Shown here: positions 5,610-54,453 of the stretch, one piece after another
How the letters are laid out: each line of letters begins with the position of its first letter
Position numbering within the stretch: the first letter of the stretch is position 1
Source: Candidatus Saccharimonadota bacterium
GTDB taxonomy: Bacteria; Patescibacteriota; Saccharimonadia; Saccharimonadales; Saccharimonadaceae
DNA length: 64,000 nucleotides
Direction: 5' to 3'
NCBI GenBank assembly: GCA_017540545.1
Contig: JAFYAV010000001.1
Span: 1 to 64,000 of the forward strand
Translations under genes and position numbers: made by a program
Notes under the pieces: generated by a model
The model's input: the letters and a program-made list of their open reading frames with translations, nothing else
Told to the model about the DNA's origin: nothing
The model's database searches: none

Positions 5610-8600
5610 TCAGCGCCAACGCAGTACAGTACCGTCTTCAGTGTCCTGAACGCTCATAGAACCGCTCTGGTTGGCTTGTTTGGCCGGCTCCGCCGGCGCA
5701 ACCTGCGCTTTTTCCGTCTGCACTCTCTGCACACTCCCAGCCGTTACAGCCTCAGGGCTCACGTTCAACACCTTACGTGGTTCGCTTTGCGGTTTTTTAG
5801 ATTCAACCTTTGGTTCATGCTTAATCTTAAGTTTTGCTTCTGTCCTCAAGAAATCATTCGTTGCTTTCTTATTCTCAGCCTTAGTCGTAGTCGCCGCATT
5901 CTGCGCCGCCGTAGTTGTCCAGGTCGACCCCGTCGTCATTTCGTCCAACTCCTCTGCTGCACTTGTTGGCGCGGGCTCTATTGCGGCCTTCGGCTCCACC
6001 ATCGGCGCAGGCTGTTTTACTGAAGCTGCAGTCGCCTCTGCTACCGGCGCAGGCTGCGCCATTTTCGGCGCTGGCGCACTTCCGGCCGCTAACGATGTTG
6101 TCGGAGCAACCGGTTCGGCTTTCGGCGCCGGCACGTCTAGCACTGCAGGCACTGGCTCCGCCTCCATCTTTGGCTGAAGCTTTTCGGGCGAAGCCCCCGG
6201 CCTCCGCGCCGAAGCCAACGCCTCCTTCTCCTCCATCATCTTTGCAGCATCCTCACGCGTCTGCTTACTCAACTTAGCCTTCTTTTCTAACCAAGAATCC
6301 AAGAAATTCTTCTTTGGCTTAGCTGACGCCGCACCGGCAGCACCTGCTGCCACGCCAGCAGCCCCTCCTGCGGCCACCCCGCCCGCCGACTTCGCTCCAC
6401 TACTCTTGGTATCATTTGCTGCCAAGCGTGCATCAATCTCCGCTTCAACCTCTGCGCGCGGCCGACCATACTTCGTCAAAGCGTATGCCTTCATGCGCTT
6501 CATTAATTCTTCATTATCCTCGCCCATAGGTGGCAAAGATTTCATCGTAAACGGCGCTGTCGGCGTGTCAAACATCATCACTGTCGCAATCCAGTTATAG
6601 TTCGGCTGCTTATGCAAATCCTCTGCAGTAAATACCGGCGAGAAAGCTTTTTCCATCAATTCCGCATCCGTCACACCAATACGACCAGATAGTAAGGTAC
6701 CCACGTTGCCCAACAAAGCCTCGCGAATCTTATCCGTCAGCTGCGTCATAAACTGGTTAGCCAAAATCAGGTTCAAGCGATATTTGCGCGCCTCAGACAG
6801 AATTGACTCAAAGCTCTCTGTCGCAAAGTTCTGAAACTCGTCTACAAAAAGACAGAAATCGACACGTTCATCTTCTGGCGTATCTTGGCGGCTCATTGCT
6901 GCCGCTTGGAATTTCATCACGAAAATCATACCAAGCAACTTCGCATTCAACTCGCCCGTCTTACCCTTCGACAGATTCACGAGTAAAATCTTTTTACTAT
7001 CCATGATTTCACGAATATTAAATCCAGATTTCGGTTGGCCTAAAATATTGCGCATCATTTTATTCGAAAGGAATGGCCCCCATTTCGACACGAACCAGCT
7101 CGTCACTTCGCCTGCATCGTTCGATTTCTGCGATGCTGGGAACTCTTTCGTCCAATAATCATAAACCGTCTTATCTGTCACATATTTGAGTTTTCCCTTC
7201 ACAAACTCTGGGTCAATAAAGCAACGCGGAATATCTATAAAAGTACCACCGGCCGGATCGCTCATCAAAAGCAACGCCGCGTTGCGGAACATGTGCTGCG
7301 CACGCGGGCCAAAAATACCCTGATTCTGTGGATCGTACAAAGAAGTTAGCATATTAATACCTTCCTGTACGATAAAGTCTTTTTGGTCTTCAGACTGGAA
7401 TTCGAACATATTCATACCAACCGGATTGTCCATATTGCCCGGCTCGAATAAAATCACATCATCCATCCGTTCTTGCGGCACCCGACTGAGCAACCATTCA
7501 ACCGCATCGCCGTGCGGATCAATGAAGGCAAAGCCACGCCCGTCGCACATATCTTGATACGCCAAGTTCTCCAAAAGTACCGACTTACCAGAACCCGTAG
7601 CACCAATTGCGTAAGTATGGCGACGGCGGTCTTTCTCTCTCAGGCGAATCACTTTCTTCTCGCCGCGGAATTCATTGACACCCAAGATAATGCCATCCTC
7701 TGCCAACTTCGCTGGGCCATCTACCTGCTTTACCGCCTGCCGTTCAACCTGCGATGTCGGAATAGCATTCTGCGCTGGCAAATGAAATAGGCTCGCCATC
7801 TCTACGCTATTCAAAATCATGCTCTTTTGTGTCTGCGGAAATATTCTCAATATATAATCGCGCACCAATTCATCCGAACGATTCATAATATCGTAACGGA
7901 AACCATTATATTGAGGCAGGTCAAATTGCGAGAAAATCGACACTATCCCATTCAATAGCGATTCCGAGCGCACTTTATTACTCGAACTGGCAACTACTCT
8001 GATCAGCACCTCAAAGCCAGGATATTTAGTCTTCTCCTCTATCTTCTGAATCTCTTCTTGCTGCAAGTTGGTCAACTGTTTATCCATATCTTTGTATGGA
8101 TCATGCGCATCTGGCGGTTCCCACAGTGCCTTTGCAATATCACCAACTAAATTACCCACATTGTACAAAACGCGATTAAGAAAATTACCCGTACTATCTC
8201 GCCATTTCTTCCCATCTTTTATATTTTGTACTCGCTCCAATGATTTTGCTACCCATTTCCCGTCCGTCGGGCGGAACAATATTTGTAGGCCAATTCCATC
8301 ACCTTTTTTTGCTACGGACATTGCATTGATTAAACCCAATGCCACATCGCGTTTCGAATCCTCATAGGTTGCAATCGGATACCAGTAGCTCTCTTTCATC
8401 CTCAGCTCACCCCCAGATACCGCATCGAGCTTCCCCTCTGCGCTAAAGAAGTTTGGATCCTCCACCTCCTCTAGGCGCGCCGTCGGATATGCTGCCGTGA
8501 TAGCCTGCTTAATCGTCTCTGTTAATATTCCTGGTACTACGGCGTAATATTTAATAAAACCATCATGCGCCACTATTTCGAAGCTAATATGCTTCTGGCC

Positions 8601-27641: not shown

Positions 27642-27718
27642 GGGTCGCTAGCTCAGTTGGCTAGAGCGCCTCGTTTACACCGAGGAGGTCGGGGGTTCGA
27701 GCCCCTCGCGACCCACCA
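27642..27718 (+). tRNA. tRNA-Val (TAC)
   Basis: Complete cloverleaf with acceptor GGGTCGC/GCGACCC, anticodon loop TTTACAC (anticodon TAC), T-loop TTCGAGC and an encoded CCA. It is the first tRNA followed by the 3'-end repeat element. Confidence 0.96.
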
Positions 27719-27905
27719 AACCAAGAAAAATGCCCAGAGGGTATTTTTTGTTGGTTTGCTTAGTTTCAGAGCGTGGGGCGAGAACCCGCAGGGTTCGTGC
27801 GAACAAGGAGCCGAGGCAAGCAAAAAATGCTTGCATTTTTATTTGCGAGGCGACGCAGTGAATCAAGGCTCCATCAGGAGCCGCTGCCCCTCGCGACCCA
27901 CCAAA
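27701..27905 (+). mobile_element. tRNA 3'-end repeat element, copy A (tRNA-Val)
   Basis: After tRNA-Val comes a terminator-like hairpin (TGCCC/GGGTA + T run), then hairpin 1 GAACCC-gca-GGGTTC, the conserved block AGGAGCCGAG, hairpin 2 (GC-rich ends enclosing A- and T-rich arms), CGAGGCGACGC, hairpin 3 GGCTCC/GGAGCC and finally a direct repeat of the tRNA 3' end (27701-27720 repeated at 27886-27905; period 185 bp). A second terminator (CACTCAA/TTGAGTG) follows the copy, as expected if it is the original tRNA flank pushed away by an insertion. No ORF inside. Confidence 0.75.
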
Positions 27906-28250: not shown

Positions 28251-28326
28251 GGGGTGTTAGCTCAGTTGGTAGAGCGATTGGTTCGCAATCAATAGGTCAG
28301 GAGTTCGAATCTCCTACACTCCACCA
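28251..28326 (+). tRNA. tRNA-Ala (CGC)
   Basis: Cloverleaf with acceptor GGGGTGT/ACACTCC including the G3-U70 pair that identifies alanine tRNAs, anticodon loop TTCGCAA (CGC), encoded CCA, and TATAAT upstream (28231-28236). It is the second tRNA followed by the repeat element. Confidence 0.95.
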
Positions 28327-28573
28327 AAAAACGAAAAGATGGCCGTCAGGTCATATTTTTGTTTTTTAATGCAGGAGATGAGAACTCGCAGAGTTCGGTA
28401 GCAAAAGGAGCCGAGCGAAGCAAAAAAGCTTGCTTTTTTATTTCCGAGGCGACGCCTTGCTATGTCTCGAGCTTAGCGAGAGATATATCTCCTACACTCC
28501 ACCAAAAAACGAAAAGATGGCCGTCAGGTCATATTTTTGTTTTTATATCCAGGAGATGAGAACTCGCAGAGTT
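28309..28573 (+). mobile_element. tRNA 3'-end repeat element, copy B plus truncated second copy (tRNA-Ala)
   Basis: Same order as copy A: terminator hairpin, hairpin 1 GAACTC-gca-GAGTTC, AGGAGCCGAG, hairpin 2 (AAAAAAGC/GCTTTTTT), CGAGGCGACGCC, hairpin 3 TCTCG/CGAGA, then the tRNA-Ala 3' end again (28309 repeated at 28487; period 178 bp). Here the repeat continues through the terminator for 58 nt and, after a short variable gap, through hairpin 1 (28373-28395 = 28551-28573), where it stops. So a second, truncated element stands in tandem. Confidence 0.75.
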
Positions 28574-45489: not shown

Positions 45490-45564
45490 GCGGGTGTCGT
45501 ATAACGGCTATTATGTATCCTTCCCAAGGATAAGACGAGAGTTCGACTCTCTCCACCCGCACCA
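45490..45564 (+). tRNA. tRNA-Gly (CCC)
   Basis: Cloverleaf with acceptor GCGGGTG/CACCCGC, anticodon loop TTCCCAA (CCC), T-stem GAGAG/CTCTC and encoded CCA. It is the third tRNA followed by the 3'-end repeat element. Confidence 0.95.
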
Positions 45565-45749
45565 GCAAAACAAAGACAACCCCAAAGGGGTTATTTTTGT
45601 TTTGTCCCATGCTGAAGCGAAGAGAGGCGAACGTAGTTCGTCCGAAGTAGGAGCCGAGCGAAAACTAGGAACGTAGTTCGTCGTTTTCCGAGGCGACGCC
45701 CTGAGGTATAGCCTTGCGCCAGCAAGGCGCTCTCTCTCCACCCGCACCA
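45547..45749 (+). mobile_element. tRNA 3'-end repeat element, copy C (tRNA-Gly)
   Basis: After tRNA-Gly: terminator ACCCC-AAA-GGGGT with a T run, hairpin 1 CGAAC-gta-GTTCG, AGGAGCCGAGCGA, hairpin 2 GAAAAC...GTTTTC with an inner GAAC-gta-GTTC, CGAGGCGACGCC, hairpin 3 GCCTTGC/GCAAGGC, then the last 18 nt of tRNA-Gly again (45547-45564 = 45732-45749; period 185 bp), and another terminator (ATAACC/GGTTAT). Sequence in the hairpin arms differs from copies A and B, but pairing is kept. Confidence 0.75.
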
Positions 45750-53517: not shown

Positions 53518-54453
53518 CTATTCTACTTCACTATGAAACTTTTCGTGTACTTCTCGCAAATGTGGGTCAGTCACATGCGTATATATCTGCGTCGTCGAGA
53601 TATTTGAATGTCCTAGCAAAGATTGCACTGAGCGCAAGTCTGCCCCATTCATTAATAAATCCGTCGCAAATGAATGCCTTAGCGTATGTGGTGTTACGTG
53701 TTTCGTGATGCCCGCCGCTCGCACATATTTATTAATAATTCTCTCAATGCTCCGCGGCGATAGTCTTCGGTAGTCTCCCGAAGTCCCCGCCGCTGGCTGA
53801 TTACGCGAATTATTCAAAAACAAAGCCGGTAAAGAATCTTTACGTTCATCTAAATAATCTTTTACCGCATCCGCCGCCGATTGTGATACGAAAACTGGAC
53901 GATCTTTTTGCCCCTTTCCGCGCACCATAAATTCCCGTCGCGCCAAGTTTACGTGATCACGATTCAAGTTTGTCAATTCCGACACGCGCAAGCCCGTCGA
54001 AAACAGCAACTCGAAAATCGCTTTATCCCTCAAACCATCTTCGGTATCCAACGGAATCTCCGCCAATATTCTATCAATTTCATCTACATGTAAGAATGTT
54101 ACTTGTGCCCGATGTGTTCGCGGCAGCTCAACCAACACGGGATCAAGTGACTTAATTCCCCGTTTCGCTAAATATTTCAGAAACCCCCTCATCGCCACCA
54201 AATGATAATTTTGCGTCATCACTGATAGCCCCTTCCCCTTCTCGGTCACATAACGATTTAGCCAAAGTCGATACTTCCTCAGCCACTCAGGTGTCAAATC
54301 CGCCGGTCTTAAATCATTCTCCGGATTTGACTCCTGACTAAATTCGATTATCCTCGATAAATACAGCTCATAGTTACGTGTTGTATATCTGCTTCTGCCA
54401 TTCTCTACCTCTAGTGACTCGAGAAACTCGTTGATTAAATCTGCGACGTACAT
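53518..54453 (-). CDS. xerD: Tyrosine recombinase XerC/XerD
   Basis: A 311-residue integrase with the SAM-like N-domain and the catalytic set: Arg in STGLRVSELTNL, His-x-x-Arg in TPHTLRHSFATDLL, His in LLGHSNISTTQIYTHV and the nucleophile Tyr in the same segment. Xer recombinases resolve chromosome dimers at dif. Length and sequence fit the single-Xer type. It starts within the pilD stop (TAATG), an unusual partner. It could also act on the tRNA-end elements, which is speculation. Confidence 0.9.
   Translation of the reverse strand: MYVADLINEFLESLEVENGRSRYTTRNYELYLSRIIEFSQESNPENDLRPADLTPEWLRKYRLWLNRYVTEKGKGLSVMTQNYHLVAMRGFLKYLAKRGIKSLDPVLVELPRTHRAQVTFLHVDEIDRILAEIPLDTEDGLRDKAIFELLFSTGLRVSELTNLNRDHVNLARREFMVRGKGQKDRPVFVSQSAADAVKDYLDERKDSLPALFLNNSRNQPAAGTSGDYRRLSPRSIERIINKYVRAAGITKHVTPHTLRHSFATDLLMNGADLRSVQSLLGHSNISTTQIYTHVTDPHLREVHEKFHSEVE

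Follow-up and report, generated by a model that had tools for sequence, protein, structure and literature searches.

A probable family of miniature palindromic DNA elements at the 3' ends of tRNA genes in Saccharibacteria

We analyzed a stretch of 64,000 nt (the window) from the genome of a Candidatus Saccharimonadota bacterium (assembly GCA_017540545.1, contig JAFYAV010000001.1), in which three copies of a repeated unit, here called A, B and C, adjoin the 3' side of tRNA-Val(tac), tRNA-Ala(cgc) and tRNA-Gly(ccc), respectively, according to the ARAGORN tRNA calls. We think that these units probably represent an undescribed family of miniature mobile DNA elements, non-coding, non-autonomous and palindromic, which insert at the T-loop/3' end of tRNA genes. 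The genomes of Saccharibacteria are very small, yet many of them bear one to eight such units behind their tRNA genes.

Results

Fold of the unit and covariation

Each unit begins with a terminator-like hairpin after the CCA end of the tRNA and ends in a repeat of the tRNA's final 18 nt. The earlier note on this window had compared copies A, B and C and claimed that compensatory changes keep three hairpins at 45547-45749. These coordinates are correct, the span taking in both 18-nt repeats of the tRNA end (45547-45564 and 45732-45749), and every hairpin arm quoted for the three copies is present in the sequence. A fourth helix (P1), a four-way junction and a complementarity to the tRNA had been overlooked. 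The junction, the centre of which is nearly without unpaired bases, is composed of P1 as the closing helix, hairpin 1 (hp1), the arm P3, hairpin 3 (hp3) and the 3' strand of P1. P3 consists of an outer stem, conserved internal loops and hairpin 2 (hp2) at its tip. In copy C, the outer stem of P3 is TCCGAAG/CTGAGG(T), which contains a tandem G.A, and the conserved core is TAGGAGCCGAGCGAA..TTTTCCGAGGCGACGC, with hp2 capping the arm.

In order to collect more copies, we turned the conserved arm into a search pattern (GGAGMCGAGMGAA-N10-40-CCGAGKCGACGC). It matched 38 stretches in a species-level genome collection and, in whole genomes, 25 of the 45 genomes of the genus and none of the 55 from other genera; a reversed control pattern gave zero matches in the same searches. 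From 42 aligned copies a covariance model, R1, was built. R1 matched 34 of the 45 same-genus genomes, with eight copies or fewer in each, and 117 of the 392 genomes of the class, chiefly in a second genus of the same family. Once duplicates were removed, 153 distinct copies in Saccharibacteria were obtained.

In the 42 aligned copies, 87.7% of the cells were paired in the structure (73.1% after shuffling), and 216 cells were altered on both sides (71 in the shuffles). The covariation score was 0.402 compared with 0.150 for the shuffled alignments, and 0 of 500 shuffles scored as high. When a G-test with average product correction (APC) was applied, 11 of the 32 structure pairs ranked within the first 40 among 10,296 column pairs. 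The shuffle controls ignore the relatedness of the copies, and two further results therefore matter. That is, sliding the partners by 1-3 columns lowered the score to only 0.07-0.11, and the outer stem of P3 occurs in more than 20 sequence versions among the 42 copies. Some of these stems are fully Watson-Crick (e.g., TGTCG/CGACA, TGCGG/CCGCA and AGCAG/CTGCT), and others carry a central tandem G.A (CGAAG/CTGAG and CGAGG/CCGAG). In one copy (L044), both strands of P1 diverge from the tRNA and the pairing is kept (GTGTTGG/CCAACAC, with CCTACAC in the tRNA). Thus, P1 is maintained in its own right.

The outcome that had been named as refuting the note, an absence of significant covariation in a larger alignment, was not found, and compensatory change is confirmed for the structure overall. 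It does not hold for hairpin 1 as independent evidence, because its differences between copies come largely from following the T-stem of the adjacent tRNA. Taken comprehensively, there is strong support for the maintenance of a folded or palindromic form, and the upkeep of the palindrome may be due either to selection or to a templating process.

Match between the unit and its host tRNA

A total of 125 copies had an adjacent tRNA. The right direct repeat (DR2) corresponds to tRNA nt 59-76 and starts right after the TTCGA of the T-loop, and its first nucleotides double as the 3' strand of P1. The identity between tRNA and DR2 stops short of nt 58. DR2 extended to nt 76 in 84 of the 125 copies and was shorter in the remainder, which retained the P1 part. 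When DR2 was compared with 117 distinct tRNA 3' ends, its own tRNA gave the best fit in 103 copies.

The 5' strand of P1 and the 5' arm of hp1 together are called the guide, whose complementarity to the own tRNA extends to either side of the insertion point between nt 58 and 59 (58|59). In the 122 copies scored, the 5' strand of P1 paired with the own nt 59-65 in 75-96%, and the total pairing was 1188 with the own tRNA, compared with 871 +/- 16 when the tRNAs were permuted. The 5' arm of hp1 scored 299 against its own nt 50-53 and 245 +/- 7.5 against permuted tRNAs (maximum 267). The pairing fits only with a 2-nt offset; there is a constant 2-nt mismatch opposite tRNA nt 57-58. The dinucleotide of the unit opposite R57-A58 was GA in 55, GC in 31, AA in 15 and AC in 7 of the 122 copies, not the complement TC. 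Measured in the same way against permuted tRNAs, the guide of copy C is complementary to about nt 53-66, spanning 58|59, and in a copy behind tRNA-Phe (L202) the complementarity runs from about nt 49 to the CCA. Part of the variation of the arms is thus a copying of the target, P1 and hp1 following the sequence of the tRNA.

Evidence for movement

Two related genomes, G034 and G035, share the same tRNA-Val neighbourhood, and the unit is present in G034 and absent in G035. At this site G035 (L273) reads CCA|TTTGTATTAGAATCGCCC, and G034 (L276) reads CCA|unit|DR2|TTTGTATTAGAATCGCCC. The flank directly after tRNA-Val in G035 (TTTGTATTAG...) is found past DR2 in G034. At the same site in G011 (L275), the terminator and DR2 are left and nothing else of the unit.

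In genome G358, the copies 3' of tRNA-Arg(ccg) (L141) and tRNA-Gln(ctg) (L158) differ by one base from the 3' arm of hp1 (GTTCG) to the end of hp3, whereas their terminators, guides, hp1 arms and DR2 differ, each set fitting its own tRNA. The same pattern of a common core with different ends was seen in two genomes for a Val copy (L144) and a Glu copy (L145). These alike cores with tRNA-specific ends suggest that the movable block is P3-hp3 and that the ends are replaced. In such recent pairs, P1 shows one-base shifts at the junction, which blur ungapped guide scoring.

Spread was also sought by clustering of paralogues, which was rejected as a line of evidence, the nearest neighbour being mostly a copy of the same tRNA type in another genome (63/125). 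It lay in the same genome in 6 of the 125 copies, where 1.6 were expected. The rarity of same-genome neighbours suggests that recent jumps are few, and the sharing of tRNA type across genomes that long residence is common. In conclusion, the units are real and widespread, and there is good but indirect evidence that they are mobile.

DNA or RNA

The earlier note had left it open whether selection acts on an RNA or on single-stranded DNA. One explanation of the covariation is a structured RNA. That is, readthrough from the tRNA would give a four-armed, tRNA-like RNA with an acceptor-like P1 ending in CCA, which would have a regulatory or other function and be selected at the RNA level. The strong covariation and the highly conserved core of P3 agree with this explanation, as does the minimum-energy RNA fold of the Gly copy, which gives the four-way junction (z -4.2). 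The P3-like arms of other genera, which lie at promoters and beside open reading frames (ORFs), may also be transcribed.

Selection at the RNA level tolerates G.U and not A.C. As a control, mismatches were counted in 146 distinct tRNAs of the same contigs; their acceptor and T stems had G.T 102 times and A.C 4 times. The outer stem of P3, in contrast, had 49 G.T and 41 A.C (Fisher p ~1e-12 against the tRNA control). Internal mismatches in hp3 were 6 G.T and 6 A.C beside 1200 Watson-Crick pairs, those in hp2 were 13 G.T and 7 A.C beside 1476 Watson-Crick pairs, and P1 had 134 G.T and 90 A.C. A clear excess of G.T was seen in the short conserved inner stem of P3 only (62, compared with 12 A.C). 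Most stems thus lack the excess of G.U over A.C that the tRNAs of the same contigs have. In addition, the terminator-like hairpin parts the tRNA from the element in 118 of the 125 copies, about one-third of the copies lack the distal half of DR2, CCA included, the presence of the unit is patchy, and no Rfam match was found. We therefore consider a structured RNA unlikely.

In the outer stem, GA and AG together were counted 94 times and TC/CT 21 times. The tandem G.A marks the plus strand, because the opposite strand would need T.C pairs. Together with the mismatch counts, this fits a palindrome whose role lies at the DNA level, the plus strand being the folded one. Of the two options, the folded or palindromic form stands as something that is kept, but selection as RNA is not supported, as most stems lack the G.U excess; single-stranded DNA, as in recombination systems, is the better fit, given the fixed insertion point, the 18-bp direct repeats, the unoccupied sister site and the strand-specific tandem G.A. 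When DNA folding parameters were used, the guide paired preferentially with the left tRNA end. Since the RNA fold gives the junction and the DNA parameters favour the left end, the folding models suggest that the guide could switch between the left direct repeat (DR1) and DR2. Covariation alone can pass for RNA, and it is the wobble-pair test against tRNAs that argues for DNA.

Proposed mechanism

The order of the parts is tRNA, terminator-like hairpin, guide, hp1, P3, hp3 and the copy of tRNA nt 59-76, and the element would act as folded single-stranded DNA. We speculate that the guide may function as a splint, which would hold nt 50-56 of the left tRNA copy beside nt 59 onward of the right copy and so align left nt 58 with right nt 59. 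A trans-acting recombinase, or template switching linked to replication, would then remove or insert the intervening DNA, and the intact tRNA would be restored. A free folded strand with its splint would insert exactly at 58|59, and the same splint would allow exact excision. Once the P3-hp3 core has reached another tRNA, the guide would be re-made or exchanged. P3 is proposed as the part recognized by the machinery, because it holds conserved sequence. A self-guided single-stranded DNA element of this previously undescribed kind, that is, a four-armed strand whose guide pairs across the T-arm and is rewritten for each tRNA, and which a host enzyme inserts and excises at 58|59, is offered tentatively, as a possibility to which we give less than even weight.

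Several points weigh against a mobile, guided element. The own tRNA was the single best match of the guide in only 54 of the 125 copies and among the top four in 89, so many guides are decayed or mismatched. The unoccupied site in G035 could equally result from precise loss through the 18-bp repeats, and the common cores with different ends may partly reflect gene conversion between resident copies. One copy (L077), a Glu-type element behind tRNA-Lys with the Glu end as DR2, is at odds with insertion at 58|59 in its simple form. We saw neither an enzyme nor a circle nor a transposition event; the source genome is estimated by a tool to be 73.5% complete, and an enzyme gene could therefore be missing from the assembly. 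The RNA fold of the Gly copy counts on the same side.

The units might instead be target-specific att sites of a larger integrative element, on which a tyrosine integrase acts in trans at tRNA 3' ends, with the hairpins as accessories. An insertion point and a 3'-end repeat of this kind are typically seen where integrases use tRNA genes as att sites, and larger integrated elements seem to abut the left side of some copies (L165, L193 and L207). We nevertheless regard this explanation as improbable: the source genome and most carriers have just one XerC-like recombinase, the copies use about 28 isoacceptors, whose 3' ends are unrelated, and bear no integrase of their own, and covarying hairpins are foreign to the usual att sites. 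Finally, a mere by-product of replication template switching, in which foldback at the terminator yields copies of the tRNA end in direct, inverted and direct order (D-I-D) and quasi-palindrome correction keeps them near-palindromic, with no mobile element, would account for the nearly perfect stems without wobble bias, for a guide and hp1 that are copies of the target and for the D-I-D without P3 at tRNA-Lys(ttt) (two tandem 68-nt units), but is very improbable, as it leaves unexplained the conserved P3-hp3 block behind different tRNAs and the constant 2-nt mismatch by 58|59, which correction would erase.

If the proposed self-guided element is real, it would need no more than a fold, a conserved arm and a guide matched to the target, and would be added to the small number of known single-stranded DNA or guided recombination systems (attC, IS200/605 and IS110). 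Because the insertion point is fixed, the mechanism can be tested directly.

Search for machinery and known families

The source genome contains a single Phage_integrase match, the XerC-like tyrosine recombinase listed in Table 1, and no second recombinase was found by the Phage_integrase search. Most genomes of the genus also have one XerC-like Phage_integrase each. This recombinase is a candidate for a trans-acting enzyme, and no evidence ties it to the elements. A reverse transcriptase (RVT_1) gave zero matches in the source genome and was found in 7 of the 45 genus genomes; a Y1 (HUH) transposase (Y1_Tnp) likewise gave zero matches in the source genome and was found in 4 of the 45. Neither being found in the source genome, both were rejected as movers.

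Gathering and permissive scans of the element against Rfam 15 gave tRNA and chance matches only, and a known RNA family was rejected on this basis. An origin from phages or plasmids was also rejected, since no match was obtained in annotated phages (apart from one tRNA-only match) or in plasmids, and the only viral contig that matched the pattern (L080) did so in GC-rich coding sequence, which we regard as a chance match. The tandem G.A motifs suggested a kink-turn or TIGR-type RNA, an idea that was rejected: there is no 3-nt bulge, and the units are single, not arrayed (PMC12045711). No description of such elements was found in open-access papers, a coverage that leaves out most subscription journals.

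Comparison with known systems

In group I introns, a single guide, the internal guide sequence, pairs on either side of the insertion point. The element differs from them in having no group I core or Rfam match and in that the left tRNA copy is already complete. The Rickettsia palindromic elements are small palindromes spread in a reduced genome; they differ from the element in sequence and targets, and we know of no guide or four-way junction in them. The ends of IS605 use guide-to-target pairing. The element differs from repetitive extragenic palindromes (REPs) and IS200/IS605 in its 18-bp target repeats, four-way junction and tRNA specificity, and the source genome is without a Y1 transposase. 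It resembles REP/GTAG sequences as a small palindromic repeat with a GTAG-like foot before the P3 hairpin (GTAGGAG); REPs are small palindromic extragenic repeats (PMC3733652).

Like tyrosine-integrase elements of tRNA genes, the element has the tRNA 3' end duplicated as a direct repeat, an intact tRNA and a fixed orientation. Unlike them, it is about 185 bp, non-coding, found at many isoacceptors and provided with an internal inverted copy of the target and with hairpin arms, and an integrase gene cannot fit between its repeats, which are 168-194 nt apart. The attC sites of integrons have a variable sequence with a conserved structure and a strand-asymmetric hairpin, and are recombined as folded single-stranded DNA by a trans-acting tyrosine recombinase (PMC2727003, PMC6393395). 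The element likewise conserves structure over sequence, as its covariation indicates. In contrast to the single hairpin of attC, it has four arms; it carries no cassette gene, inserts in tRNA T-loops and bears a target-complementary guide, and instead of an IntI-type integrase most genus genomes have one XerC-like Phage_integrase. In the bridge RNA of IS110 and in TIGR-Tas, tandem guide halves flank the target point (PMC12045711). The guide halves of the element also flank the target point, but its guide lies in the inserted DNA and matches the present site.

Positions of the features

The source genome comprises 795 kb in two contigs, and the window belongs to contig 1 (463 kb). The features in the window are listed in Table 1.

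Table 1. Features of the window, with positions, strand and basis of assignment
Feature	Position	Strand	Basis
tRNA-Gly(ccc), host gene of copy C	45490..45564	+	ARAGORN
Left direct repeat (DR1) of copy C, tRNA nt 59-76	45547-45564	+	repeat analysis
Copy C, tRNA-Gly(ccc) element	45565-45749	+	sequence
Copy C terminator-like hairpin, from tRNA to guide, CAAAACAAAGACAACCCC/GGGGTTATTTTTGTTTTG	45566..45604	+	inverted repeat I1
Copy C guide: P1 5' strand (..GAAGAGAG), unpaired GC, hp1 5' arm GAAC	45613..45632	+	
Copy C hp1, CGAAC-gta-GTTCG	45628..45640	+	sequence, covariation
Copy C arm P3	45641..45707	+	alignment, pair counts
Copy C hp3, GCCTTGC-gcca-GCAAGGC	45711..45728	+	sequence
Right direct repeat (DR2) of copy C, tRNA nt 59-76	45732..45749	+	repeat analysis
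Copy A, 3' of tRNA-Val(tac) (27642-27718)	27719..27903	+	sequence, repeat analysis
Copy A hp1	27782-27796	+	
Copy A P3 core	~27807-27857	+	
Copy A hp3	27867-27882	+	
Copy A DR2	27886-27903	+	
Copy B, 3' of tRNA-Ala(cgc) (28251-28326)	28327..28504	+	sequence, repeat analysis
Copy B DR2	28487-28504	+	
Truncated second tandem unit after copy B (terminator, guide and hp1 start only)	28505..28573	+	repeat family D1, nhmmer match
XerC-like tyrosine recombinase	53518..54453	-	sole Phage_integrase match in source genome

The source genome has additional copies 3' of Gly(tcc) and Tyr(gta) (a full and a truncated tandem copy), a decayed copy 3' of Val(cac), and short or partial copies 3' of Lys(ctt), Leu(caa) and Arg(tcg).

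Distribution and other observations

All named contigs bearing elements are from Saccharibacteria, and a rumen or gut origin is common. The host tRNAs belong to 28 isoacceptors. In distant families of the class, we found the same plan with a different core (..ACGAGGAGCGCAG..CGAGCACCGCAGG..) behind tRNAs for Thr (L307), Pro (L308, in tandem), Gln (L309 and L315) and Arg (L314). Other genera within the family of the source genome have the P3 arm alone, at promoter-like TATAAT/TATAACAC boxes or beside gene starts, and the flanking sequence supplies the outer stem. Such P3-like hairpins are located at L300, L301, L302, L304, L311, L312, L316-L318, L321, L323, L324 and L326. By eye, the genes beside them look like leucyl- (twice), prolyl- and glycyl-tRNA synthetases (L302, L318, L311 and L317) and, at L316, a TypA-like GTPase.

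Two copies lie at what appear by eye to be rRNA genes. One (L066, 1-300, minus strand) is just 5' of the start of 23S rRNA with no tRNA, and its P1 pairs with the 23S leader. The other (L299, ~1300-1680) is element-like and inserted at the 3' terminus of a 5S rRNA gene; about 40 nt of this terminus are present as a direct repeat. The L077 element (7778-7935), of Glu type with a Glu 3' end, stands directly behind tRNA-Lys(ctt) and may be a recombinant, an insertion behind the CCA or an assembly error.

At L165/L340, L193/L339, L207/L338, L054/L343, L157/L342 and L161/L341, the left flank is without a tRNA and has a short minus-strand coding end, WCTVVKEVRTII-like, fused to the last 8-9 nt of the tRNA end. 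These flanks look like the ends of larger integrated elements with a gene split at the tRNA site. A primase-like ORF of 740 aa lies in the L340 neighbourhood.

The D-I-D without P3 at tRNA-Lys(ttt) of the source genome (G000 C2:244222-244360) consists of two perfect tandem 68-nt units. A second type of repeat 3' of tRNAs has a long terminator-like palindrome, an inner GCTCG..CGC hairpin and a GAAGAAA..ACCAA motif, and is sometimes in tandem. It was found behind tRNA-Ser(cga) and tRNA-Arg(gcg) of the source genome (G000 C1:149230-149310 and C1:155196-155412), and further at L050, L149, L159, L192, L201 and L212.
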